Below are positions 4,003 through 63,270 of a stretch of DNA of 64,000 nt, piece after piece (the stretch's first letter is position 1; each line of letters starts with the position of its first letter). The position numbers were made by a program, and so were the translations under genes. The notes under the pieces are model-generated. The model was not told where the DNA came from. It saw only the letters and a program-made list of their open reading frames with translations, and ran no database searches. Source of the stretch: Arenicola marina (taxonomy: Eukaryota > Annelida > Polychaeta > Arenicolidae); assembly GCA_964019135.1 (NCBI GenBank), contig OZ025248.1:69508119-69572118 (forward strand), in the 5' to 3' direction.

Positions 4003-5335
4003 CTCTGGAACAGATTTACCATACGTAACTTCCTGGAGCAGATTCTAAAATGTTAACAAATGCTTTGGTTGTCTTACAAGATATAATAATTACGGACCAA
4101 CTGCGGTTACATAAAGGGGCGATATATCGGACGGAATATTAGGACCATAGTCAGATTAGAAAGCCACGAAGGCCACTTGTACTGCTCGATCTTGAAAAGG
4201 CATTCGACACGGTAACGTCGCCATTTTTGCAACGTTTTTAAAAAAAAAACTTTTTGGGCCTTATTATCGCACATGGATGAAGATAATATACTCAAACATA
4301 ACTTCCTGCTGCATGAATAATAACATATCAACGTAATTCTTTAGCGTAAGGAGGGGCATAAGGCCAGGCTGTCCCACAAGGGTATAAAAGTAAGACAAAC
4401 CAAAGATTTACACGGTATTGCTATCCGGATATCGAATTTAAAATAAGCTAACTTGCGGGCGACGCCACTCTTTCTCTGCAAGATCACAAGTCTTTACGCA
4501 TTGCATTGAATATCTTAGACACATTTGCGTTGTGCTCTTGTTTAAAGTCAAAGACTAAGACACGTATTTTTTACCCTGGTAAGACAAATTACAAACCTAT
4601 GGCGCAGAACGTGTATGATATACAGCCTGCTGGAACATGTTATATTATGAAGCTTCAGTGTAATTGGTTAAGATTCCTTACGTCATGACTATCACATGAT
4701 CTCCACTGTCTTGGTCACTTCCACTGAACGGACGCACCACTGAATAAAACATCAACCTATGTCATGACAGTTGTCAAGTATATTCCGAGGCACTCGTCCA
4801 ACACACGGCAGAATGTAACAGAGCAGTATTTAAAAACATTGAGCTATGCTTCTGTAAAGATTTGCATAAAACCTCTGAACCAACTTTATTAAAATGGATC
4901 AAAAGACTGCTAACGACTAATTGCACTGGTAATTAATGTGTTAGCCTTCGAGCTTCTGACGACTATTTGCGCTGGTAATGTGTTAGCCTTCGAGCAGCTG
5001 CATGACGACTAATTGGACTAGTAATGTATTAGCCTTCGAGCTGCTGACGACTAATTGGACTAGTAATGTGTTAGCTGTTAGCTGCATCCGGTTACGCCAG
5101 AACAACTAATTAACAAGTTGGCAATGACATTTCTTTCATCATTTCTTTCAAAAACCAAAAAAGCTCCTTTATGACCAAATGTTAGAAATGTGGTGCTCTT
5201 TCCACGCTCGCGAACCGAAAGTGGAATCGATCCGGGGCGAGCATTTATGGCGTAACAAATTTATATTAATTGGTAAGGATATTGCAAGGAAACACAATAA
5301 TGGTTTTATGCGAAATGGGACCTGGCCGGTAAATA
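4003..5335 (+). pseudogene. Decayed copy of the L1/Tx1 LINE ORF2 (RT region)
   Basis: This is a degenerate relative of ORF2 of the complete LINE at 40598-47069. About 4003-4640 matches 44690-45415: it holds remnants of the RT palm region, including a copy of the LDFEKAFDTV coding segment at 4185-4215 and the sequence around KTRIFY...MAQN.YDIQPAG at 4555-4630. About 4823-4870 matches 45418-45470, and 4885-5335 matches 45775-46060. Frameshifts and stops break it throughout, the active-site segment is disrupted, and parts of ORF2 are deleted. About 180 bases unrelated to the LINE are inserted near 4641-4822. A short segment has been tandemly amplified at 4910-5080. It cannot encode a working enzyme. 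Confidence 0.85.
4910..5080. repeat. Local tandem amplification inside the dead LINE copy
   Basis: Four tandem versions of about 45-60 bases, each carrying GACGACTA-TTG-n-CT-GTAAT and GTTAGCCTTCGAGC. The intact LINE has this segment once, at 45790-45830, so amplification happened after insertion and decay of this copy. Confidence 0.75.
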
Positions 5336-5559
5336 AAAAAAGGGAGCACTATTAGAAATAGTATCCCATATGATGCGTTAAAACGTCAAAACATAGTCAG
5401 AGACGTTTCGTGACGCTTAAACGTAGGTTCCCCTCTGAAGAGCTCGTGCGCTGTACACATGAGACGGCAGTCCTACTACTTTTGATGCGTTAAAGAGTTT
5501 TAATACGTAATTCTGTTACAAAACATCGCCGATTAAAACGATGTTCCAGATATTATGAA

Positions 5560-8805: not shown

Positions 8806-11508
8806 TTTTTTTTTTTTTTTTTTTTTATTTCATAGGCAGCACAAACACATTACATAATAACCAAAACGTAGCGGTGGTTTCATAGTAAACAAAAATAATG
8901 TCTCTACCGTAGCTTACTGGCAATCGAGGGCATGTCGCAGAGGACTCCACTTGTTATCGAAAATCATTAAACTGTACCCGCCTTTATCATGCGAAATATA
9001 TTTTTCTATTTGATAGTAAAACTTGATTGCATTTTTACACCCTTGAAAAGACGGCTTACTACCTTTCCATTTACTACCATATATATATCTTTTAATGATC
9101 CATAGTATATGGTTGAAAAGATTGCCATATTTATTCTTAGAGATTCCAAGCAAGATTATTTTCTTTGAAAACAAATTAACAATGTTAATTTCAATGTACT
9201 GTCTCAACCATGTGACCAATGTTACCCAAAGTTGCCTTATATAGGGACACTCGCAAAAAAGATGCATTATAGTTTCCGGGTCTGTGTGACAAAACGAACA
9301 ATTGTCATTCTCTCGTATCTTGCATGTCTTAAGATATACATTTGTGGCGGTAGTATGATGCAATATGTCAAATTGAAAGCTCCTTAATCGCTCATCAATA
9401 GTAGCTATGTACGGCAATTTATAAAAACATTTCCATTCAGGGGTTGAGATGGTACATCGAAGTTCTCCTTCCCATTTAGTTTCATTGCGTTTATTAACCT
9501 TAAGACACTTGACAAGATTATTATAGATATAATGACATGTTCGTTTCTCTCGGGATACCTTCTCCAAACAAGTATTTTCAAAATTTACCGCAATTTCTTG
9601 ATATGTGCTACATGTCTGCTTCCACTCTCTTGGAAGACAATGCATAAGGCTATAAAAGTCAGCAAAATTTATACTTGTATTGTAGCGCTCCTTAAATTCT
9701 ACCCATCCAAGTAGATCTCCGTTATCATTAAGTAAATCCTTAAAATAACACAGCCCTTTATTTATGAACTCTTTTTTCCTGGAAATTACGTTTTGGTTGG
9801 TTAGAAAATACGTGTTCCAAATTGGATACCTATATACGTCATAACTAGAATCTACACTTTGGGTTTTCAGATAGAAATACCAGGCTTTCACGACCTCGGC
9901 CCAAAAAAGAATTTCGAACTTTACAATATGGTACTAACGATCGAGGATCTACCTCCCACAACAACTTTTTTTCCTCACAAATGATATCTTGAAAAAGTTG
10001 TTGCCACGTCCCAGAAGTATTTATAAGGCGTGGAATCCATGCAAGCTTAAGCGCTTTAAAGAATGACGGAACATGAGTGTTACCTACACCTCCAGCTTCA
10101 ATGGACTGGCAAATCTGATTCATCGAAACTTTGGATTTTCTACCTTTCCAAATAAAATTGCGGATTGCACTGGTGAGCTTGTCCAAATACGCCTGTCCCG
10201 GCGTGGGTAAGGCCGCTATAACATGCATCAGCTTAGGTAACGCTAAAGACTTTACTACCATCACACTTCCCCTGAGTGACAGGTTTCGCTTGCCATATGC
10301 TTGTAATATTCTACTGAATTCTACTAGTTTACTGTCGTAGTTTAATGATATAATTCTATCAAAATCTAGTGTAAATTTAATACCCAACAATGTAAATTCA
10401 TCAGCCCAGTCCAGTGCTATATCTTTACAGAAATTAACATCCCGTTTTTTTCCAAACCATACCGCTTTTGTTTTATCAATATTCATACGCAAGCCAGACA
10501 CCCTATAAAACAACTCCATAATTTTTAACACTCGTCTTACTGACTTTTCGCTTCCGTCCAACATCAAGAATGTATCATCCGCGTACTGACCTATAAGAAA
10601 CTGTGTACATTTAATTACAATACCTATTACTGAAGAGTCGTTTTTCAAATACATAGCAAGTGGTTCTATAGCTAGAATAAAGATGTATGGTGACAAGGGG
10701 TCACCTTGTCTGCAACCTCTCTCTAGAGTAAACCTTTCTGAAAAGTTGCCATTGTTTATTACGCAACTACTAGGCTGTTTATATATCAAATTAAACCATT
10801 TAATAAACGATGGACCGAAACCGTATGCTTCAAAAACTCGGTTAATATATCTCCAACTTAACGTATCAAATGCCTTTTCAAAGTCTATTAAAAGTAACAT
10901 GCCAGTCCTGTTATTATTTACCATATAGTGCATCATATCATAGACTAACCGTGTGTTTTCACCTATAAATCGCCCCTTTAAAAAACCCTTCTGGTCACTG
11001 CTAATTATGTCAGGTAAAACTTGTTTCATTCTATGTGCTAAAACCCCTGTCAGAATCTTGAAATTCACATTTAGTAGAGATATAGGTCGCCAATTTTTAA
11101 AAAATTCCTTGGGTTTATCCCCTTTAGGTAAACACGTGATCACCCCTTGCTTCCGACTAATAGACAACTCCTCTACACGAAAAGCATGTTCAAGACTGCG
11201 ACACAGATAGGCCCCTAATTCCCTCCAAAATACTTTGTAAAAGTCGATGGGTAAACCATCGCTGCCCGGGGTTTTATTATTTTTCATATTTTTAACAATC
11301 AGCTTTATTTCTTGTATTGTAATATTGCCTTCACAAAGCTCACATTGTTGATCAGTTAACTTTTTAACGTTAGCCGATTGTAAAAACGTATCAAATAAAG
11401 ACTCTTGCCTCTGATCATCGGCATTCGAATACAGTGTCTCATAATATTTTCTAAGTTCTATCAAAACTTCCTTCGGTGTATTTACTTCTACCCCATCCAC
11501 TACTAATC
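8803..11508 (-). mobile_element. 5'-truncated L1/Tx1-type LINE (non-LTR retrotransposon)
   Basis: The element is read on the minus strand. Its 3' end is the poly-T run at 8803-8826 (poly-A on the element strand) and its 5' break is at 11508, where the 15-bp target duplication begins. Only the 3' part of ORF2 remains: the linker after the endonuclease, the whole reverse transcriptase and the C-terminal Cys/His motif. ORF1, the endonuclease and the 5' UTR are missing, as expected from incomplete reverse transcription. One frameshift near 9845-9900 splits the coding region. The exact target duplication and otherwise open reading frame indicate a fairly recent insertion that was dead on arrival. 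It is related to, but clearly different from, the complete LINE at 40598-47069. Confidence 0.92.
8914..9891 (-). pseudogene. LINE ORF2, C-terminal part (after frameshift)
   Basis: This frame encodes about 325 residues that continue the reverse-transcriptase protein of 9845-11533 after a one-frame shift. A Cys/His motif, CSFCHTDPETIMHLFCEC, is found about two thirds along; it matches the CX2C...HX4C motif near the C terminus of L1/Tx1-clade ORF2 proteins and aligns in position with CRLCGNMETIEHLFYHC in the complete LINE. The two frames overlap at 9845-9891, so a single indel in that overlap or just upstream separates them. The Met at 9891 is not a natural start. The stop is followed by about 90 bases of 3' UTR and the poly-A tail. 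Confidence 0.85.
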
Positions 11509-11533
11509 TGTATGAAAGAATTTGCTTACACAT
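9845..11533 (-). pseudogene. LINE ORF2, reverse transcriptase part (truncated)
   Basis: Open frame of 562 codons with the reverse-transcriptase blocks in order: NNKTPGSDGLP, the WRPISLLNVNFKI segment, DQKGFLKGRFIGENTR, LLLIDFEKAFDTLSW (first catalytic Asp), RGCRQGDPLSPYIFILAIEP, and the catalytic QYADDTFLML. This is the L1/Tx1 arrangement, in which the enzyme makes cDNA on nicked target DNA. The endonuclease that should precede it is missing. The first eight or nine residues, including the Met, come from the target duplication and flanking DNA (11509-11533), so this start is accidental. The frame ends in a frameshift, with the rest of the protein at 8914-9891. Confidence 0.93.
11509..11523. 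repeat. Target-site duplication of the truncated LINE, copy 2
   Basis: Exact copy of the 15 bases at 8791-8805. It marks the 5' break point of the LINE and supplies part of the spurious N terminus of the ORF on the minus strand. Confidence 0.88.
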
Positions 11534-11554
11534 TTTTCAGCCTAACTAGAGATA

Positions 11555-17440: not shown

Positions 17441-17453
17441 CTGATTCCCAATA

Positions 17454-18545
17454 ATGGCCAGATTTCATACCAAAGGTGTCCTAATCTCCGGTATCGTCGC
17501 ACTTATTTTCCTTACCTACTTCGCCATGATGAGCCAAGACCCTGGAGGTGGACATCGCCGCGGACACAGACCCTACGAACGACCAATTGACCTACGCCAG
17601 TTGAAACTCGAGCGACCCCCGCCTGACGTCATCCACGTAGATCACCCGCTCAACAAAGAAATTCAGAATAGTAATAAGGGGGACTTTGACGCGGCTGAGG
17701 TTCTGCCCATTCTAAATCAGAACCGAAATGAAAGTGTCCTAACGAATGAATCGTGGCAAGAATTTTTGAAGCCTATGCCTCGAATTGATGGAATGAACAT
17801 CGTGTCGATGACGCTGTACGGCAATCAGCGACGCTATACAATGGGAGCTTTGCGAAATGCCGAGCTGGTTAAAGACAATTTCCCTGGCTGGACGCTCAGG
17901 GTGTACACCGAGTCTCCGGCTGACGCCCGCCACGGTGCCTTACCTCGAGACGTGGTACAGGCCTTACGGATGCTGGGGGCCGAGATCTACTTCATGCAAG
18001 GGGACCAGGACTTCATCCCGCCCATGATGTGGCGCTTCCTCGTAGCAGACGACACTTGGGTCGACCGCTTCATTGTCAGGGACGCCGACGCTCGTCTGAC
18101 GGCCCGGGACGCCGCCGCGGTGTACGCCTGGGTCCAGGCCGACGCCCCATTCACCTGCATCCGAGATCATCCTAGTCATGCGCAGTACGCTGTTTCTGGG
18201 GGATTGTGGGGCGGTAAACCTACCGCTTTGCGGAACATCCTCCGCCGTTCGTGGCATGACATGATGCGAGGCGTACAAAGTCAGTATTTAGAGGATATGA
18301 ACTTCATGAACTACGTCATTTGGCCCAAAGTGCAGAATCATACTTTTTGCTCGGACAGCGTCTCTTGTCGGCAATGGCCCGGGGCACACCCCTTCCCCGT
18401 ACCTCGCTTTGGCTATGAGCACGTCGGTCAGGTTGTCAGTGAACAGGACCTGGGACGCCCAGTAGATATGCAAATTCTACGGAGCGCCGGTGAAAACGTC
18501 AACTGTACTCCACCAGCATTCAAACGACGTGTAATATCGAGTTGA
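17454..18545 (+). CDS. Type II membrane protein, glycosyltransferase-like, intronless
   Basis: A 363-codon uninterrupted frame. The ATG has A at -3 and G at +4, and an in-frame TGA lies four codons upstream, which fixes the start for an unspliced message. Residues 8-26 form one hydrophobic segment after a short basic N-tail, so the protein is predicted to be a single-pass type II protein with its C-terminal domain in the Golgi or ER lumen. Residues 50-100 look like a stem region. N-glycosylation sequons occur at N92, N98 and N295. The globular part has IVSMTLYGNQRRYTMGALRN (117-136), FIVRDADARLTARDAAAVYAW (206-226, with a DxD-like acidic triplet), CIRDHP and SGGLWGG. This pattern is common to a poorly characterised family of invertebrate and microbial glycosyltransferase-like proteins. 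I do not know the substrate. GC content is clearly above that of its surroundings. Confidence 0.85.
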   Translation: MARFHTKGVLISGIVALIFLTYFAMMSQDPGGGHRRGHRPYERPIDLRQLKLERPPPDVIHVDHPLNKEIQNSNKGDFDAAEVLPILNQNRNESVLTNESWQEFLKPMPRIDGMNIVSMTLYGNQRRYTMGALRNAELVKDNFPGWTLRVYTESPADARHGALPRDVVQALRMLGAEIYFMQGDQDFIPPMMWRFLVADDTWVDRFIVRDADARLTARDAAAVYAWVQADAPFTCIRDHPSHAQYAVSGGLWGGKPTALRNILRRSWHDMMRGVQSQYLEDMNFMNYVIWPKVQNHTFCSDSVSCRQWPGAHPFPVPRFGYEHVGQVVSEQDLGRPVDMQILRSAGENVNCTPPAFKRRVISS

Positions 18546-32600: not shown

Positions 32601-32839
32601 CTCCTCTCTCCTTCTCCCATTGACGCAATATGACCAAAAGTGGTTAAAGTGTCCTGAATATACAACCAACTCCCTAAACCAGATTTGTATAATAGTGCAC
32701 CCCCGCCCCCTCCCAGGGGGAGGGGGACAACACTACCTGACTCCCCCTTGATACTATTTAATATGGAAACGATCTATATAGAAAGCTCATTAATATCAAT
32801 ATAAATCTGGAAAGGTGATACAAAATTGTTTTTTTTGCT

Positions 32840-33912
32840 GCAGCAGCTCCGGTAACCGTTCACGGGATGGTTTTGTTGCTGCAGCAGCCCTGGTAACCGT
32901 CAGTGGGATGGTTGTGTTGCTGTAGCAGCCCCGGTAACCTGCCACGGGATGGTTTTTTTGCTGCAGCAGCCCCGGTAACTATCCACGGGATGGTTTTGTT
33001 GCTGCAGCAGCCCCGGTAACCTGCCACGGGATGGTTTTGTTGCTGTAGCAGCCCCGGTAACCGTCCACGGGATGGTTGTGTTGCTGTAGCAGCCCCGGTA
33101 ACCGTCCACAGGATGGTTGTGTTGCTGTAGCAGCCCCGGTAACCTGCCACGGGATGGTTTTTTGCTGCAGCAGCCCCGGTAACCGTCCACGGGATGGTTT
33201 TGTTGCTGTAGCAGCCCCGGTAACCGTCCACAGGATGGTTGTGTTGCTGCAGCAGCCCCGGTAACCGGGATGGTTGTTTTGCTGCAGCAGCCCCGGTAAC
33301 CTGCCACGGGATGGTTTTTTGCTGCAGCAGCCCCGGTAACTGTCCACGGGATGGTTTTGTTGCTGCAGCAGCCCCGGTAACCGTCCACGGGATGGTTTTG
33401 TTGCTGTAGCAGCCCCGGTAACCGTCCACGGGATGGTTGTGTTGCTGCACCAGCCCCGGTAACCGTCCACAGGATGGTTGTGTTGCTGCAGCAGCCCCGG
33501 TAACCGGGATGGTTGTTTTGCTGCAGCAGCCCCGGTAACCTGCCACGGGATGGTTTTTTTGCTGCAGCAGCCCCGGTAACCGTCCACGGGATGGTTTCGT
33601 TGCTGCAGCAGCCCCGGTAACTGTCCACGGGATGGTTTTGTTGCTGCAGCAGCCCCGGTAACCGGGATGGTTGTGTTGTTGCAGCAGCCCCGGTAACCGG
33701 GATGGTTGTGTTGCTGCAGCAGCCCTGGTAACCGTCCACGGGATGGTTTTGTTTCTGCAGCAGCCCCGGTAACCGTTCGCGGGATGGTTGTGTTGCTGCA
33801 GCAGCCCCGGTAAACTGCCACGGGATGGTTTTATTGCTGCAGCAGCCCCGGTAACCTTCCACGAGATGGTTTTGTTGGTGCAGCAGCCCCGGTAACCGTC
33901 CACAGGAGGGTT
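32840..33912. repeat. Large 41-bp minisatellite (GCAGCAGCCCCGGTAAC family)
   Basis: About 26 tandem copies of a 41-bp unit with CTGCAGCAGCCCCGGTAACC and GTCCACGGGATGGTTTTGTT. Some copies are shortened to about 28 bp (GGTAACCGGGATGGTTG) and others vary at CTGCC/CGTCC/TGTCC. The unit has no stop codon in any minus-strand frame, so three long frames (347, 320 and 280 codons) overlap here. They are a by-product of the repeat, with no upstream gene structure. Confidence 0.95.
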
Positions 33913-33917
33913 TTGTT

Positions 33918-40597: not shown

Positions 40598-40990
40598 CTG
40601 GAAACCCCCTGGAAACTGAAAATGGCTAACTGGCACAGCGGCATGAAATTCTGACTCTGAATGTGAACCTTAAATGTGCAACCTCAAGCCTTGCTGATCA
40701 GATATATATTGCGGAATTACGACAATGAACATAGAAGGATTCATTTGAATAATATCATGTGGTGAAAAGAGATGCCGACTTGGTGATTGAAGCTGGTATT
40801 ATTTCGTCAGTTGGTTACTGAATGTAACCTATCGCTGCATGGCCGGCGGACGCATTCAACCGAAACCAAGCGCTAACATTGAAGGCGACACAGCACACCT
40901 GTTCGCCGGCCACGTCACGGCATCTCGGTCAATACGGATAGACCCCACGCACCGTTTCGGATATATACACATAAGCTCTGGTGGATACAA

Positions 40991-42289
40991 ATGGCACGTA
41001 ATCTCACCCCAAGAACTATAAGTAAGCGACCATTCTCAATCTTATCTCCTGACTCCCCAACGTATGCCATATCACAGATAGCTAAGAAAATAGATATGGA
41101 AGAAGAAATTGACTTGGGGCTTCCAACAGACACACCAAAGTGGGCCGTCTGTATGGCTAATGTTATTGCGAACAAAATGGATAAAATGGAAAAATGCCTC
41201 GGTCAAAGCATTATGTTACTACAAGAAGAGTGTCAAGAAAACTCTACTGCCATAACAGAAGTGAAAAAACAAACGGAGTGTTTAACATCTGAAATTGCTG
41301 CCCTTAAATGGGAAAACAAACAACTTAAAGAGAGAGTCGTGCGCAACGAAGCTCAGGACCGTAGGAACAATCTACTGTTCTTCGGCCTGCCAGAGGCTGC
41401 GGGTGAAACTAACACTGATTGCGAAGAGCTAATTAAAAAAACCATCACCGAAACTATGCAGCTTGACAGCAGTAAGATGCTAATATCCAGAGCACATCGC
41501 AATCCCCCCGGCCCCTTTAAGCCAGGTGGAACTCGCGCTGTCATCGTCAGATTTCACTTCCTTGGTGATCGTATGGCCGTGTGGCGCAAACGGTCTGCCC
41601 TCATTGGCAACGTCAAGGTCGCCGAAGACTTTCCCCAAGAAATAATGGACCGCCGGCGTGAGCTGAAACCGATTCTACACGCCGCAAAACAAAACCCCTT
41701 GTACAACAATGCATACCTCACAGTGGATAAGCTGGTAATCAACAAGGTAACCTACTCGGTCGACACGCTCAGTCGACTGCCACGGGAGCTTGATGGGAAG
41801 CAGATCGCCACCCCCACAAAGTCTGACGTCACGTGTTTCTGGAGTCAAGCGTCACCCCTGTCAAACTTCCATGGCACCACACTAAAACTTAAAGGAAAAG
41901 ACTTCTACTCAGTGGAACAATATTACCAATATCAGAAGGCCATGCATCACAACGAAAGTGATCTGGCACGAGATATTGTGACAGTGTGCGATCCGGTACA
42001 GGCACGGAAGCTGGGAAAGCAAATCAAGACCAACAGCGGAACTTGGGAACAACAGTCCATGGCCATCATGGAGGAGGCGCTGCGTGCAAAGTTTTCGCAA
42101 AACCCTGCATTGAAAGACTTTCTTCTCGCAACCGGGCAAACCAAGTTGGCTGAGTGCAGTCCTCATGACAAGTTTTGGGGTACAGGACTCTACCTAAGCC
42201 ATGCAGATGCATTTAACCCTAAAGCCTGGCCAGGCCAAAACCAGCTCGGATCAATGCTCGAGCGAGTGCGCGCGGAGCTTCGACTGTAA
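40991..42289 (+). CDS. LINE ORF1 protein: coiled coil, RRM-like region and C-terminal NADAR domain
   Basis: 432 residues. Residues about 62-122 are heptad-rich and charged (coiled coil for oligomerisation). NNLLFFGLPE (126-135) and AVIVRFHFLGDRMAVWRKR fit the RRM-like domain, and KVAEDFPQEIMDRRRELKPI the C-terminal domain, of L1-type ORF1 RNA chaperones. From residue about 281 to the end is a NADAR (YbiA-like) domain: CFWSQASPLSNF (282-293), FYSVEQYYQYQKA (305-317, with the SxExYxQxxKA signature), DPVQARKLGKQIK, IMEEALRAKFSQNPAL and DKFWGTGLY (393-401). The domain appears complete, with its conserved acidic and aromatic positions kept. NADAR enzymes cleave N-glycosidic bonds of phosphoribosyl or ADP-ribosyl compounds, including ADP-ribose on guanine in DNA. 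The role here is unproven. The ORF lies within a LINE with ORF2 following, so it is an element gene, not a host gene. Confidence 0.94.
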   Translation: MARNLTPRTISKRPFSILSPDSPTYAISQIAKKIDMEEEIDLGLPTDTPKWAVCMANVIANKMDKMEKCLGQSIMLLQEECQENSTAITEVKKQTECLTSEIAALKWENKQLKERVVRNEAQDRRNNLLFFGLPEAAGETNTDCEELIKKTITETMQLDSSKMLISRAHRNPPGPFKPGGTRAVIVRFHFLGDRMAVWRKRSALIGNVKVAEDFPQEIMDRRRELKPILHAAKQNPLYNNAYLTVDKLVINKVTYSVDTLSRLPRELDGKQIATPTKSDVTCFWSQASPLSNFHGTTLKLKGKDFYSVEQYYQYQKAMHHNESDLARDIVTVCDPVQARKLGKQIKTNSGTWEQQSMAIMEEALRAKFSQNPALKDFLLATGQTKLAECSPHDKFWGTGLYLSHADAFNPKAWPGQNQLGSMLERVRAELRL

Positions 42290-43124
42290 AGGCCAGTAAT
42301 TGGTGACATTGTATGCGCGCTCGCCCAGTAGGTGCCCTGCGTCATGCCTCGTAACTTAACTTGTCTCTTAAGACTTAACTCAACTCAATCGTCACGTCAT
42401 GATTTCTGGTCCTTTATTAAATTTAAATGTATTTCACCTCGAGAGCCTACAATGAACAAGAGCCGCTTAGGTTAACGTGATTGTTCAGTGTGTAGCTTGC
42501 CCATAACGACTGTAGCCACGTTTTGAATTATAGGCCTACCTAATCATGCTCTACGCACCATTGGTTCATTTGCATAGTTGTAAGAGTTAAATGTGCTATC
42601 GTGTTCGCTATGCACCCAAAAGTTGCAGTAAATTATTAGAGTAATGGTGTCGTTAATAAGTTACATACAACGATGTCCTTATTAACGCGGAAGCCAACAT
42701 GGTGTATACTTGGCGTATGCATTAACGCGTTTCGCTATATATCTACATATTCATCTCAGCTTGCAACTGTGTCTGAGTCGAGCATTGATTAGTACGTGGC
42801 TCTATTTAAAGATAAAGTGCACTTGTGATTTGTTTCCTAACACAGCAAAGGTTACCATGTATATTACATGTCCAATTCAACTCATAGCCACGCTTGAGTC
42901 AATTACATTCAGGCTTACTCATAGCAGAGGTTTAAATTAGCACACCAAAGGTTCACTGTCAGTTTCAGAGTAATATCTCGTTATAGCCAACAAGCCATAC
43001 ACAATTGAAAACGCTTTCACGCGATGTACAATGTATTGATACTAAATCTGCCTTCAACACAGAACGACACAATGAGCACAGAACGTCACGCACATAACCT
43101 TAAAATGAAAAGTCATCATAAAAC
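42290..43124 (+). other. Long inter-ORF spacer of the LINE
   Basis: 835 bases between ORF1 and ORF2 with no long frame in the sense direction; the largest open stretch (42710-42940) shows no domain. Many L1/Tx1 elements have much shorter spacers or overlapping ORFs. ORF2 translation would need reinitiation, internal entry or a separate RNA. Confidence 0.7.
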
Positions 43125-46100
43125 ATGGGGATAAAAATCACAAGCTTTAATGCAAGGGGGTTGCGTGATAAATTAAAAAGAAAAGCCGTCATTCAGCATC
43201 TCTTTGAACAACAAAATGGAATAATATTCCTACAAGAAACACATAGTGATGTACAGTCCGAGAAGGACTGGAAAAACGAGTGGCATGGAGAAATACTCTT
43301 CTCCCATGCGACATCTCAGAGACGAGGTGTCGCAATATTATTCCCTAATCATCTACAGTTTCATATAGATAGTTGCGCGTCTGACACTGATGGCAGATAC
43401 ATCTGGGTAAATGTCACCATTGGTAGCGATACTTATTTTTTGCTTAATATCTACGCTCCCACCAAAGATTATCCAAGATCGCAACTTCAATTTGGAACTG
43501 AAATATCAAATCTAATGGTAACCCATGGCGATCAAAATATAATAATTGGAGGAGATTTTAATATATGTTTAAATCCGCAAGTTGACAAGCGCGGTGGTAA
43601 AATAGAACAACCCACAGAATACACGAAGTGTCTCTTAAATTTGATGGAAGTTTATGAATTGAACGATATTTGGCGGGTCCGAAATCCCACTGCCAAAAGA
43701 TTTACCCATAAACAAAAAACGAAGTTGGGGATGGTGTACTCTAGAATTGATTATTTTCTCACATCTGCCCAACTGGGGTATTTTATAAGTGATGTAGATA
43801 TACGAACCAGAGCATTTTCAGATCATTCAAGTATTCAGTTATCATTAAGTCCAACCGGGGTACCAAAAAGAGGGCGAGGATTCTGGAAATTTAATGTTTC
43901 TCTACTGCGTGATCAAAGCTATGTTGAATCCATAAAACGGTGTATAGCGGAATGCAAAATCCGTTATGCCAGCACTAATGATAAAGGATTGGTTTGGGAT
44001 GTAATCAAGTGTGAAATCAGAGGTAAAAGTATCAGCTATAGTAAGTTTAAGACCAAAAGTGAACGTAACAGAAAAGATGAGTTAGTAAAACGACTGAATA
44101 GCTTAGAGTTAAAGCAGGATCAAACGGGCGCAACTACCGATGAAATGATGCTCTTACAACGACAGTATGAAGATCTCCAAATGTATGAAGCCCAGGGTGC
44201 ATTGGTTAGGGCAAGAGCGGTACGAATTGAAAATGATGAAAGAAACACAAAATACTTCTTAAATATGGAAAAGAAGAGAAGCACTCTCAAACATATTACC
44301 GCCCTCTTTGATAGCAACGATTGCCTAGTTTCGGAACCTGAACTAATACTGAAAGAGCAATTGAAATTCTACTCACAACTCTATACCGATAATAGAACTC
44401 TAGATGAAATAGACTCATATTCCGACTTCTTCTTATGCCACGATGTACCAACAATAACACCAGAATCGCGAGACCATTGCGATAAAGACCTAACATATAA
44501 TGACTTTGCAAAAGCTCTCCAAAACATGAAAAATAACAAAAGCCCAGGGAGTGATGGATTATCATGTGAATTCTATAAGTTTTTTTGGTCGGAAATCAAG
44601 GATCTTGTACTAGATAGCCTTTTGTATGCCCTTGATAAAAAGTCATTAAGCATAGAACAAAGGAGAGGTGTCCTTACATTGATCCCCAAAACTGGAAAAG
44701 ATTTACGATACGTAACTTCTTGGAGACCTTTGAGTCTGCTGAATACGGATTATAAAATTTTAACAAAAGCCTTAGCTGAGAAACTCCAGGTTGTCATACA
44801 AGAGGTAGTAAGTACGGACCAATGCGGTTACATAAGGGGGCGATATATCGGACGGAATATTAGGACTATCGCAGATATCATGGAATACACCAGTTTAGAA
44901 AACCGTGAAGGCCTACTTGTACTGCTCGACTTCGAAAAGGCATTCGACACGGTAACGTGGCCCTTTTTACACAGAGTTTTGGAAAAAATGAATTTTGGGC
45001 CTTATTATCGCACTTGGATCAAGCTAATATACTCAAACATAACTTCCTGCTGCATGAATAATAACATATCAACGGCGTTCTTTACCGTAACGAGGGGCAT
45101 AAGGCAAGGCTGTCCCATAAGCGCTCTTCTCTTCATTTTAGTTGTCGAAACACTGGCTATAAAAATAAGACAAACCAAAGATATACACGGTATTGCTATC
45201 CGGAATACCGAATTTAAAATAACCCAACTTGCGGATGACGCCACTCTCTTTCTGCAAGATCAAAAGTCGTTAAGCATTGCATTACATATCTTCGACAAAT
45301 TTGCCTTGTGCTCTGGTTTAAAGTTAAACAGGACCAAGACACGTATTTTTTACCTTGGTAACACAAACCACAAACCTATGGCACAGAACTTGTATGATAT
45401 ACAACCTGCTGGACCAGTGTTCAAAACTCTTGGTATATACTTCTGTAAAGATTTGCATGAAATGTCTGCAAAGAATCTTGACGAAAGGTTTCGAAAATTT
45501 AAAACAATCTTGCAAATATGGTCTTCAAGATCACTATCCCTGAGAGGTAAAATTACTGTCTTGAAAAGTTTGGCGATCAGTCAGCTAACGTATGCAACCT
45601 CAATGATATATGTACCATCGAGCTTTATTCAAGCAGTAGATAAAGAGATTGTAAGCTTCTTATGGAATAAGAAACCAGCAAAAGTGAAAAAAAGTACCAT
45701 CGTGTCAGATTATAAGTACGGGGGCCTGAAGATGCCTCACTTTGAATCTATTATATGTAGCCAGAGGGTAATGTGGATAAAAAGATTGCTGACGACTAAT
45801 TGTACTGGTAATGTGTTAGCCTTCGAGCTTCTTACAGTGACGCCAGACGAACTAACCAGCAAGTTGGCAATGAAATTTGTTTCAAAACCAAAAAGCCTTT
45901 TTTATGAGCAAATGTTAGAAAAGTGGTACTCTTTCCACTCTCGCGAACCTGAAGCGGAATCGATCCGGGACGAGCATTTATGGCGTAACAAATTTATATT
46001 AATTGGTAAGGATATTGCAAGCAAACACAATAATGGTATTTATGTGAAATGGGAACATGCCGGTATAAAAACCGTAGGCGACCTTTGGAATGTCGAAGGC

Positions 46101-46925
46101 GAAATAATTAGTGTATCTGATTTACGGGATAGGTACAATATTTATATTGATGTGATGCTCCATAACAGTATTATTCACGCGATACCAAAAATCTGGATTT
46201 ACAAATATCGCCATATAATGGAAAAAGATAACTTAGTTATTAAAGTTTCTATCCCACGAGGTAATATAATGTGTAATGGACAACTGCTAGCCGGGTTATC
46301 AAACCGGTGGGTGTATGACTGTTTAATAGCGAGATTCCAGAAGCCTCCTTCCTCCATCGCGAAATGGATTGAACAGTTCCCTTACCTTCATGATGCTGAC
46401 TTTGCAACAATTTTTTCCCTACCACAGCAAATTACTCGAAGCACAAGATTGCAAAGCTTCCAATATAAGGTTTTAAATAGAATTGTTGCCTGCGGATATA
46501 ACCTGGCTAAATGGAAATTAAGCAATACTGCACAGTGTAGGTTATGTGGAAACATGGAAACAATAGAACATTTGTTTTATCACTGTATTAAGGTCAGACC
46601 GTTTTGGGAAAACATCGAACGATTTGTGCAAATTAAGAGTCCGCTGTCTCTCCCTAATATAATTTTTGGAGTACCGTTGTTAGAACGGACGGATCAATTG
46701 TATATCAACCTCACTATATTAGTAGGGAAATGGTTTCTATATGGATTAATGCTTAACAATTGTAGTACTATATCCACAACGTCTTTTGTTAATACCCTAA
46801 AAACTCATGTAGCCAGCGAGCACATGGCAGAAGTTCTTTATAGTAACAATAGACGGGAATGGCAAGCCTTCAATGAACAAATTTCTTCTCGACCGCCACC
46901 AAATGAGACAGACGACAGTCCCTGA
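43125..46925 (+). CDS. LINE ORF2 protein: AP-like endonuclease and reverse transcriptase
   Basis: 1266 residues, intact. The N-terminal AP-like endonuclease nicks target DNA: SFNARG (N9), LQETH (E38), LLNIYAPT, GGDFN (D144, N146), SRIDYF and SDHSS (D233, H234) are all present. The reverse transcriptase follows: NNKSPGSDGL, LIPK, WRPLSLLNTDYKI, LLVLLDFEKAFDTV (catalytic D602), RGIRQGCPISALLFILVVET and LADDATLFL (catalytic D704 and D705; the residue before ADD is Leu rather than the commoner Tyr or Phe). Near the C terminus CRLCGNMETIEHLFYHC (1138-1154) is the Cys/His motif of the L1/Tx1 clade. Together these carry out target-primed reverse transcription. The start chosen is the ATG giving the MGIKITSFNARGLRD opening, typical for the endonuclease. 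Confidence 0.97.
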   Translation: MGIKITSFNARGLRDKLKRKAVIQHLFEQQNGIIFLQETHSDVQSEKDWKNEWHGEILFSHATSQRRGVAILFPNHLQFHIDSCASDTDGRYIWVNVTIGSDTYFLLNIYAPTKDYPRSQLQFGTEISNLMVTHGDQNIIIGGDFNICLNPQVDKRGGKIEQPTEYTKCLLNLMEVYELNDIWRVRNPTAKRFTHKQKTKLGMVYSRIDYFLTSAQLGYFISDVDIRTRAFSDHSSIQLSLSPTGVPKRGRGFWKFNVSLLRDQSYVESIKRCIAECKIRYASTNDKGLVWDVIKCEIRGKSISYSKFKTKSERNRKDELVKRLNSLELKQDQTGATTDEMMLLQRQYEDLQMYEAQGALVRARAVRIENDERNTKYFLNMEKKRSTLKHITALFDSNDCLVSEPELILKEQLKFYSQLYTDNRTLDEIDSYSDFFLCHDVPTITPESRDHCDKDLTYNDFAKALQNMKNNKSPGSDGLSCEFYKFFWSEIKDLVLDSLLYALDKKSLSIEQRRGVLTLIPKTGKDLRYVTSWRPLSLLNTDYKILTKALAEKLQVVIQEVVSTDQCGYIRGRYIGRNIRTIADIMEYTSLENREGLLVLLDFEKAFDTVTWPFLHRVLEKMNFGPYYRTWIKLIYSNITSCCMNNNISTAFFTVTRGIRQGCPISALLFILVVETLAIKIRQTKDIHGIAIRNTEFKITQLADDATLFLQDQKSLSIALHIFDKFALCSGLKLNRTKTRIFYLGNTNHKPMAQNLYDIQPAGPVFKTLGIYFCKDLHEMSAKNLDERFRKFKTILQIWSSRSLSLRGKITVLKSLAISQLTYATSMIYVPSSFIQAVDKEIVSFLWNKKPAKVKKSTIVSDYKYGGLKMPHFESIICSQRVMWIKRLLTTNCTGNVLAFELLTVTPDELTSKLAMKFVSKPKSLFYEQMLEKWYSFHSREPEAESIRDEHLWRNKFILIGKDIASKHNNGIYVKWEHAGIKTVGDLWNVEGEIISVSDLRDRYNIYIDVMLHNSIIHAIPKIWIYKYRHIMEKDNLVIKVSIPRGNIMCNGQLLAGLSNRWVYDCLIARFQKPPSSIAKWIEQFPYLHDADFATIFSLPQQITRSTRLQSFQYKVLNRIVACGYNLAKWKLSNTAQCRLCGNMETIEHLFYHCIKVRPFWENIERFVQIKSPLSLPNIIFGVPLLERTDQLYINLTILVGKWFLYGLMLNNCSTISTTSFVNTLKTHVASEHMAEVLYSNNRREWQAFNEQISSRPPPNETDDSP

Positions 46926-47069
46926 TACTATACTTTGTTTTTGCTTTTGTTTTTTTTTCTCTTAATCCCTAGACTTACATTAAGAAATGTGTGTGTGTGA
47001 TTGATGTATCTCTCTGTGCTCATTGATGTGTATTTCTGTTGAAAGCAAAAAAAAAAAAAAAAAAAAAAA

Positions 47070-47083
47070 GTCACCCCCTTAAA
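47070..47083. repeat. Target-site duplication of the complete LINE, right
   Basis: Exact repeat of 40584-40597 directly after the poly-A tail. The sequence continues AATATGTTCCAATG, which matches the reverse complement of the repeat copy near 38185. Confidence 0.92.
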
Positions 47084-48560: not shown

Positions 48561-48570
48561 TCTCACAATA

Positions 48571-49185
48571 TCTAAGTCAATGTTTCCCGTCCTTTATACT
48601 ATATCACAAGACCCCACTCAAATCTTTGAGGCAATGCTACCTGTTCGTTATACTATTCAACAAGACCCCACTCACAATCTCTAAGTCAATGTTTCCCGTC
48701 CTTTATACTATTCAACAAGACCCCACTCACAATCTCTAAGTCAATGTTTCTCGTCCTTTATACTATGTCACAAGACCCCACTCACAATCTCTAAGGCAAT
48801 CTCTAAGTCAATGTTTCTCGTCCTTTATACTATATCACAAGACCCCACTCACAATCTCTAAGGCAATGCTTCCTGTTCGTTATACTATTCAACAAGACCC
48901 CGCTCACAATCTCTAAGTCAATGTTTCCCGTCCTTTATACTATTCAACAAGACCCCACTCACAATCTCTAAGTCAATGTTTCCCGTCCTTTATACTATAT
49001 CACAAGACCCCACTCAAATCTTTGAGGCAATGCTACCTGTTCGTTATACTATTCAACAAGACCCCACTCACAATCTCTAAGTCAATGTTTCTCGTCCTTT
49101 ATACTATATCACAAGACCCCACTCACAATCTCTAAGGCAATCTCTAAGTCAATGTTTCCCGTCCTTTATACTATATCACAATATC
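48571..49185. repeat. 55-bp tandem array with higher-order variants
   Basis: About eleven copies of a unit with CTAAGTCAATGTTTCCCGTC, CTTTATACTAT, TCAACAAGACCCC or ATCACAAGACCCC, ACTCACAATCT. Copies of two types (TTCAACAAG and ATCACAAG; TTTCCCGTCC and GCTACCTGTTCG) are mixed, and longer blocks recur (48571-48690 resembles 48961-49080), so block duplications occurred. Confidence 0.9.
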
Positions 49186-57955: not shown

Positions 57956-57960
57956 CTTTA

Positions 57961-58725
57961 TTCACTCGGGTTATTACGCCTACATTAAACTGGTGGCGCC
58001 ATTCACTCGGGGTATTGTGCCTACATTAAGCTGGTGGCATCATTCACTCGGGGTATTGTGCCTACATTAAACTGGTGGCGCCATTCACTCGGGGTATTGT
58101 GCCTACATTAAGCTGGTGGCATCATTCACTCGGGGTATTGTGCCTACATTAAACTGGTGGCGCCATTCACTCGGGGTATTGTGCCTACATTAAGCTGGTG
58201 GCATCATTCACTCGGGGTATTGTGCCTACATTAAACTGGTGGCGCCATTCACTCGGGGTATTGTGCCTACATTAAGCTGGTGGCACCATTCACTCGGGGT
58301 ATTGTGCCTACATTAAGCTGGTGGCATCATTCACTCGGGGTATTGTGCCTACATTAAGCTGGTGGCATCATTCACTCGGGGTATTGTGCCCACATTAAGC
58401 TGGTGGCATCACTCACTCGGGGTATTGTGCCTACATTAAGCTGGTGGCACCATTCACTCGGGGTATTGTGCCTACATTAAGCTGGTGGCACCATTCACTC
58501 GGGGTGTTGTGCCTACATTAAGCTGGTGGCACCATTCACTCGGGGTATTGTGCCTACATTGAACTGGTGGCATCATTCACTAGGGGTATTGCGCCCACAT
58601 TAAACTGGTGGCACCATTCACTCGTGTGTTGTGCCTACATTAAACTGGTGGCACCATTCACTCGGGGTGTGCCTACATTAAACTGGTGGAACCATTCATT
58701 CGGGGTATTGCGCCTACATTAACTC
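57961..58725. repeat. 41-bp tandem array with 82-bp higher-order pattern
   Basis: About eighteen copies of a 41-base unit with CATTCACTCGGGGTATTGTG, CCTACATTAA and CTGGTGGC. Between 57990 and 58260 two subtypes (AAACTGGTGGCGC and AAGCTGGTGGCAT) strictly alternate, giving an 82-bp dimer. After about 58260 the order is irregular, and the right end is degenerate (CACTCGTGTGTTG, shortened copies). Confidence 0.95.
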
Positions 58726-62415: not shown

Positions 62416-63270
62416 CCACCTCCCTGAAACGGTCATTACACGTTAGATGGTGGCACCTCCCTGAAACGGTCATTACACGTTAGATGGTGGCACCTCCCTG
62501 AAACGGTCATTACACGTTAGATGGTGGCACCTCCCTGCAACGGTCATTACACGTTAGATGGTGGCACCTCCCTGCAACGGTCATTACACGTTAGATGGTG
62601 GCACCTCCCTGCAACGGTCATTACACGTTAGATGGTGGCACCTCCCTGGAACGGTCATTTCACGTTAGATGGTGGCACCTCCCTGGAACGGTCATTTCAC
62701 GTTAGATGGTGGCACCTCCCTGCAACGGTCATTACACGTTAGATGGTGGCACCTCCCTGGAACGGTCATTTCACGTTAGATGGTGGCACCTCCCTGGAAC
62801 GGTCATTTCACGTTAGATGGTGGCACCTCCCTGCAACGGTCATTACACGTTAGATGGTGGCACCTCCCTGCAACGGTCATTTCACGTTAGATGGTGGCAC
62901 CTCCCTGGGACGGTCATTACACGTTACATGGTGGCACCTCCCTAGAACGATCATTACACGTTAGATGGTGGCACCTCCCTGGAACGGTCATTTCACGTTA
63001 GATGGTGGCACCTCCCTGGAACGATCATTACACGTTAGATGGTGGCACCTCCCTAGAACGATCATTACACGTTAGATGGTGGCACCTCCCTAGAACGGTC
63101 ATTTCACGTTAGATGGTGGCACCTCCCTGGAACGGTCATTTTACGTTAGATGGTGGCACCTCCCTAGAACGATCATTACACGTTAGATGGTGGCACCTCC
63201 CTGGAACGGTCATTTCACGTTAGATGGTGGCACCTCCCTAGAACGATCATTACACGTTAGATGGTGGGGG
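62416..63270. repeat. 37-bp tandem array (GGTGGCACCTCCCTG family)
   Basis: About 23 copies of a 37-base unit with TGGCACCTCCCTGGAACGGT and CATTACACGTTAGATGG. Variants at three sites (CTGAAAC/CTGCAAC/CTGGAAC/CTAGAAC, GGTC/GATC, ATTAC/ATTTC) occur in mosaic order, showing repeated unequal exchange or gene conversion. Confidence 0.95.

Follow-up and report, generated by a model that had tools for sequence, protein, structure and literature searches.

In the annelid Arenicola marina, ORF1 of a full-length LINE encodes an L1-type ORF1 protein fused to a NADAR domain of the YbiA type with a complete catalytic set. The element lies in a 64,000-nucleotide stretch of contig OZ025248.1 (assembly GCA_964019135.1, positions 69,508,119 to 69,572,118), referred to here as the window. 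A preliminary description of this DNA, made from its letters alone, had read a LINE ORF1 joined to a complete NADAR in one uninterrupted frame of 432 codons, and this was confirmed by profile match, fold and catalytic residues. By analogy with characterised NADARs, we consider it possible, at somewhat less than an even chance, that the domain strips ADP-ribose from guanine in the element's own RNA or cDNA.

Anatomy of the element and its fusion protein

In the profile search that the preliminary description had proposed, the NADAR part of the window protein scored 136.2 bits against a curated cut-off of 35.1, and the predicted structure, superposed on NADAR structures as it had also suggested, has the NADAR fold. 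The L1-type parts that had been named, a coiled coil, an RRM-like domain and a C-terminal domain, were recovered in the AlphaFold2 model and by matches to human L1 ORF1p. The start region of ORF1 resembles the N-terminus of a related family, L025 (by eye).

The element has the parts of an L1-group LINE, with an apurinic-type endonuclease and a reverse transcriptase in ORF2, an ORF1 protein with coiled coil, RRM and C-terminal domain, a poly(A) tail and a target-site duplication, the last described beforehand as perfect and found to be an exact repeat of 16 bp (Table 1). In a comparison covering LINE-1 proteins and R2-type proteins with PDB structures, ORF2 has human LINE-1 ORF2p as its best solved relative (E 5e-101), with R2 proteins far behind (E 5e-19). 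The ORF1p trimer fold, the endonuclease and reverse transcriptase of ORF2, the poly(A) and the target duplications are shared with human LINE-1; we know of no NADAR in human L1 ORF1p.

Table 1. Features of the LINE in the window
Feature	Position	Strand	Evidence or content
Left target-site duplication AAGTCACCCCCTTAAA	40582..40597	.	exact 16-bp match to 47068-47083
Full-length L1-group LINE: 5' UTR, ORF1, spacer, ORF2, 3' UTR, poly(A)	40598..47069	+	between target duplications; copies L009, L010
ORF1, 432-aa ORF1p-NADAR fusion protein	40991..42289	+	
Coiled-coil helix, residues 50-123	41138..41359	+	single long helix in AlphaFold2 model
RRM-like and C-terminal domains of L1-type ORF1p, about residues 124-275	41360..41815	+	structural match to human L1 ORF1p 2ykp/2w7a/2ldy
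NADAR domain, residues 281-431	41831..42283	+	profile match, alignment to 8bau, structure match
Spacer between ORF1 and ORF2, 835 bp	42290..43124	+	
ORF2, 1266 aa	43125..46925	+	endonuclease residues 7-234, reverse transcriptase 520-748, C-terminal zf-RVT 1107-1161
Poly(A) tail, 23 A, last two within duplication	47047..47069	+	
Right target-site duplication	47068..47083	.	

Two further copies of the element were read. L009 is 98.9% identical to the window across 40620-47069, and L010 is 5'-truncated, with similarity that begins inside the NADAR codons and 99.1% identity. Both are inserted elsewhere than the window copy, L009 with a 13-bp target duplication 7 bases ahead of the start of similarity and L010 with an 8-bp candidate duplication only; the target sites of the three copies are unrelated, and no target-site specificity was seen among them. 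The ORF2 frame is open in all three, and base changes between the window and L009 fall in 8 synonymous and 11 nonsynonymous codons of the 1266. In L009 the open ORF1 frame begins no earlier than about codon 36 (396 codons from stop to stop versus 468), L010 lacks the 5' part of ORF1, and among the three copies both frames are whole in the window copy only. The near-identity of the copies and their open ORF2 frames indicate that the family is young, and the window element is a young, probably autonomous L1-group retrotransposon. The spacer between its frames has counterparts of about 0.9 kb in L019-L021, to which no DNA similarity was detected, and the corresponding gap in L023 and L024, which are of the CCHC type described below, is 22 bp.

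Elsewhere in the window, the minus strand at 8917-11536 carries what is left of a different L1-group ORF2, which spans two overlapping frames and is related to the element in L013, and further fragments lie on the plus strand in the vicinity of 4005-5352. A plus-strand frame of 366 codons (17445-18542) begins like a signal anchor, with a hydrophobic segment seen by eye, and had no Pfam match. Tandem arrays occupy 32830-33917 and 57960-58722 (period 41 bp in both), 48562-49141 (55 bp) and 62417-63267 (37 bp), and several frames are open on the minus strand of the array at 32830. In the same assembly, contig C762 is a mitochondrial genome of 15,942 bp, with twelve protein genes present as long frames (named by eye) on one strand and tRNAs on the same strand, two opposite-strand calls and a further call inside a gene having been set aside. 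Its order is cox1-N-cox2-D-(gap fitting atp8)-Y-G-cox3-Q-nad6-cob-W-atp6-R-H-nad5-F-E-P-T-nad4L-nad4-C-M-V-L-A-S-L-nad1-I-K-nad3-S-nad2, which we take to be the annelid ground pattern. In conserved stretches of nad4, AAA corresponds to Lys (by eye), which speaks against an echinoderm.

Distribution and architectures of NADAR-bearing LINEs

A search of the A. marina genome returned at least 317 NADAR candidates, of which 150 were scored; all 150 exceeded the Pfam cut-off, 118 matched without an internal stop, and 78 lay in stop-free frames of at least 350 codons. Twenty loci of about 10 kb were picked from the top of this list, and in 18 of them (the exceptions being L013 and L016) ORF2-like frames follow downstream on the same strand, as judged by eye. 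The NADAR domain is described as rare in animal proteins (PMC9303266), and the count of 18 in 20 suggests that animal NADAR listings may in part consist of retrotransposon proteins. In a public protein set, the window ORF1 as query found 27 relatives, 26 of them with a Pfam NADAR, and a CCHC-type query found 26, all with one. The same fusion, which the preliminary description had proposed to look for in other elements, is present in many LINE families.

Two architectures were distinguished. The first, an L1-type ORF1p with a C-terminal NADAR, includes the window protein, L009, L014, L019-L022, L025, L027, L028 and L038. In the second, a CCHC knuckle closely precedes the NADAR and a long tail follows (L023, L024, L030-L037, L039, L040 and P0034-P0054), and in 21 of 21 sequences of P0034-P0054 the CCHC pattern lies 25-28 residues ahead of the NADAR start. 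A model of the CCHC type (mean pLDDT 76.9, residues 377-520 below 50) matched NADARs first (8bau, E 6.8e-8) and next tandem-RRM proteins such as UP1, with a poor superposition (rmsd about 12-13 A), so that a tandem RRM in the CCHC-type ORF1 is a reading of the model and not a firm result. The ORF2 of this type, read in L023 and L024 and at its start in L036, is related to that of the window. In L030, L031, L032, L035 and L037 the NADAR is followed by a long SAPSGEKPSHAA-like repeat of copy-dependent length.

The trees disagree on one capture of the domain versus several. In a 67-row tree the window clade and the A. marina CCHC-type NADARs group together (95/95). In a 75-row tree the CCHC-type NADARs and the tandem protein L029 are separated from the others by a branch (100/97), and the L1-type NADARs are intermixed with stand-alone NADARs; in AU tests on this tree, a single clade was rejected neither for the ten stand-alone NADARs (p 0.29) nor for the 37 L1-type rows (p 0.16). 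A scan of prokaryotic genome contigs with the NADAR domain gave 11 pattern matches and a scan of viral contigs with the full ORF1 gave 6, none confirmed in either case; single-protein scans of this sort reach close relatives only, and these negatives therefore say little about origin. The tandem protein (L029:111-2696, G000:C2:38384400-38388000) is an open frame of 862 codons with two nearly identical NADARs, a repetitive charged middle and an N-terminus with a weak likeness to linker histone (16.9 bits against a cut-off of 22.4). It is not obviously a LINE ORF1 and may be a host gene or else a domesticated copy. Another protein, P0027 (478 aa), has both a Macro domain and a NADAR, so that a single chain combines two families of ADP-ribose hydrolase.

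As a kind, the LINE ORF1-NADAR fusion is already in print. A Repbase query reported in PMC12477816 (Genome Biology 2025) found that several Tx1 families of LINEs in the Pacific oyster (Crassostrea gigas) carry a YbiA-type NADAR in ORF1, and the window protein, a LINE ORF1 with a YbiA-type NADAR, is of this kind. The oyster elements differ from the window element in belonging to another phylum, and the passages of that paper on their NADARs give no selection or active-site analysis of them. The same paper reports a YbiA-type NADAR in Pol of Ectocarpus Gypsy elements, which are likewise retroelements with such a domain but are LTR elements of a brown alga that carry it in a Pol polyprotein. NADARs in polyproteins of animal RNA viruses, described in PMC9503650, offer a further RNA-based genetic element with the domain, although these are viruses and not retrotransposons. 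Among the matches listed in the open-access literature, we found neither an annelid fusion nor an active-site or selection analysis or a tested function of such a fusion.

The active site and selection on the domain

In the NADAR of Phytophthora nicotianae, according to PMC11543638, the distal ribose is bound by E43 and E125, and hydrolysis depends on K50 for its efficiency; for the enzyme assayed there, E88A, at the equivalent of E43, is reported to have a minor effect in vitro and E88Q to be inactive. Alignment to the P. nicotianae structure (8bau) places E309 (41915-41917), K316 and W352 of the window protein at E43, K50 and W89, and E388 (42152-42154), D393 and W396 at E125, D130 and W133. 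By subfamily, the E125 position is given as Glu in YbiA, His in phage and Asp in BC4488 NADARs (PMC11125620), and the Glu of YbiA is found in the window and in all 21 sequences of alignment A1. DarT1-NADAR toxin-antitoxin systems use the same hydrolase family, but assignment to their NADAR (BC4488) was ruled out since it needs Asp at this position (PMC11543638), and unlike them the element has no coding frames besides ORF1 and ORF2.

Conservation was counted over rows with an ORF1-like part, leaving out eight stand-alone or other proteins, L029 and the duplicate loci L001-L008. Among 51 public proteins (the window included), which are LINE-like by their ORF1 part only, the E43 position is Glu in every one and the E125 position is Glu in 43, His in 5 and Asp in 1, two sequences ending before the site. 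In the A. marina genome (33 rows from 30 loci) the E43 position is Glu in 29 and Asp in 4, and the E125 position is Glu in 28 and Ala in 4, with one row ending before the site. Lys or Arg occupies the K50 position in 42 of the 51 public rows and in all 33 from A. marina. His, the residue reported for phage NADARs, occupies the E125 position in five ORF1s of the CCHC type, P0043, P0049, P0051, P0052 and P0053.

In a set of 52 sequences, which leaves out the lineage of L015-L017 and L026 as well as P0021, P0025, P0028 and P0055-P0059, six pocket residues, a subset chosen once the alignment had been viewed, exceed the remainder of 114 positions in conservation (Mann-Whitney p 0.00026), and all 13 published contacts taken together give p 0.012 against the rest. 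The positions of Y84, D86 and R93, adenosine-end contacts in P. nicotianae, are variable in this set. The NADARs of P. nicotianae (8bau) and E. coli (YbiA, 2b3w), which unlike the window protein lack a fusion to a retrotransposon ORF1p, also differ from it in their adenosine contacts. Given these variable contacts, and a K50 position that is not always Lys or Arg, the ligand may differ from ADP-ribose. A different small ligand would fit a role in which the NADAR of the LINE particle removes soluble signals of a host immune pathway, ADP-ribose or NAD-derived, and not nucleic-acid adducts, and for viral NADARs, those of phages in particular, PMC9503650 proposes a possible preference for small derivatives of ADP-ribose. 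An RNA-binding trimer is, however, an odd anchor for an enzyme acting on a diffusible signal, and we regard this role as improbable.

The preliminary description had also raised conservation of the catalytic Glu across copies, which holds in most elements but fails in one lineage, L015-L017 and L026, where Asp and Ala replace the two Glu in four of four loci. Near-identical copies of this lineage lie on three chromosomes, and L026 retains an open frame of 420 codons despite the loss. Judged by its residues, the lineage is a candidate pseudo-enzyme LINE, and since both Glu are lost in a lineage that is young, catalysis is not needed in every LINE. The lineage is the best argument for the NADAR as a binding or structural module, for nucleic acid, ADP-ribose or a protein partner, in which catalysis is dispensable; the two catalytic positions are nevertheless among the most conserved of the 52-sequence set, from which this lineage is absent, and we hold such a module to be quite improbable. 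In L015, L017 and L026, the downstream reverse transcriptase is only distantly related to that of the window (E about 1e-5 to 1e-7).

Selection was assessed by pairwise codon likelihood, using the rejection of omega = 1 and not the omega values themselves; synonymous distance was saturated, 4 of 11 NADAR branch lengths ran to an extreme and a fifth was 92, and the pairs share sequences and hence are not independent. Between families, omega = 1 was rejected in 11 of 11 pairs both for the NADAR codons (2dlnL 65.5-126.2) and for the rest of ORF1 (72.8-197.2), and constraint on the two parts appears comparable. Free decay of the domain, with dN/dS near 1, which had been named beforehand as evidence against a function, was therefore not what was found between families. 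In the within-family pair L021 and L025, omega = 1 was rejected in neither the NADAR (omega 1.47, not different from 1) nor the rest of ORF1. Constraint between families with none clear within a family suggests that moving lineages keep the domain and single copies drift. That the captured domain is a passenger, merely lengthening ORF1p, might be read from the near-identical copies, which have few changes and include neutral-looking pairs such as this one, as would dead copies of any element; the omega tests between families already disfavour it, as do the conserved pocket and the occurrence of the domain in two architectures, which make it highly improbable.

Possible function in the retrotransposon particle

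The interpretation first offered for the domain was that of an eraser by which the element may counter host ADP-ribosylation. It is supported in part, by the fusion, by similar fusions in many other elements, by Glu residues conserved in most of them and by purifying selection on the domain between families, and the erasure of ADP-ribose is what we infer. NADARs, E. coli YbiA included, are reported to take ADP-ribose off guanine in DNA (PMC11125620) and also to hydrolyse guanine-ADP-ribose in RNA, which no macrodomain or ARH enzyme tested in PMC11833690 did. If the coiled coil trimerises ORF1p on the element RNA, as it does in human L1 ORF1p, each particle would place numerous NADAR active sites next to its RNA, and next to the new cDNA as well while target-primed reverse transcription is under way. 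Hydrolysis of the ADP-ribose-guanine bond there would keep the template readable for the reverse transcriptase, and the selecting agent would be a putative guanine ADP-ribosyltransferase from the host or the environment.

In the nematode trans-splicing factor SNA-3, mutation of residues homologous to the catalytic ones of NADAR impairs an RNA-processing protein, although folding could be affected according to the authors (PMC9303266). We count this toward the eraser model. The place of SNA-3, a NADAR protein, within an RNA-processing complex also favours a NADAR that serves the ribonucleoprotein as an RNA-processing or RNA-end module, for example by acting on RNA ends that are modified or in the assembly of the RNP, as do the match of L1-type ORF1p to RNA-binding folds, the CCHC knuckle of the second type and a guess by the authors of PMC12477816 that the Ectocarpus domain processes RNA intermediates. 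Against such a module, the C7 NADAR of E. coli is reported to be inactive on RNA ADP-ribosylated at phosphate ends (PMC11833690), and we consider it, too, to be improbable.

The eraser model is supported by the family and fold of the domain, the conserved Glu, the rejection of omega = 1 between families and published NADAR chemistry, and by the fusion of NADAR to RNA-binding-type ORF1 proteins of two architectures. The Glu-less lineage, the variable adenosine contacts, the K50 position that is not always Lys or Arg and the lack of clear within-family constraint weaken it. A broader proposition, which we think doubtful, is that ADP-ribosylation of guanine in RNA or cDNA serves invertebrates as a defence against retrotransposons, and that LINEs of two ORF1 architectures answered by adding NADAR, the only hydrolase family known to take this mark off RNA, to the protein that coats their RNA. 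With an active domain, LINE particles would bring their own nucleic-acid repair enzyme, and its presence would point to an ADP-ribosylation pressure on invertebrate retrotransposons.
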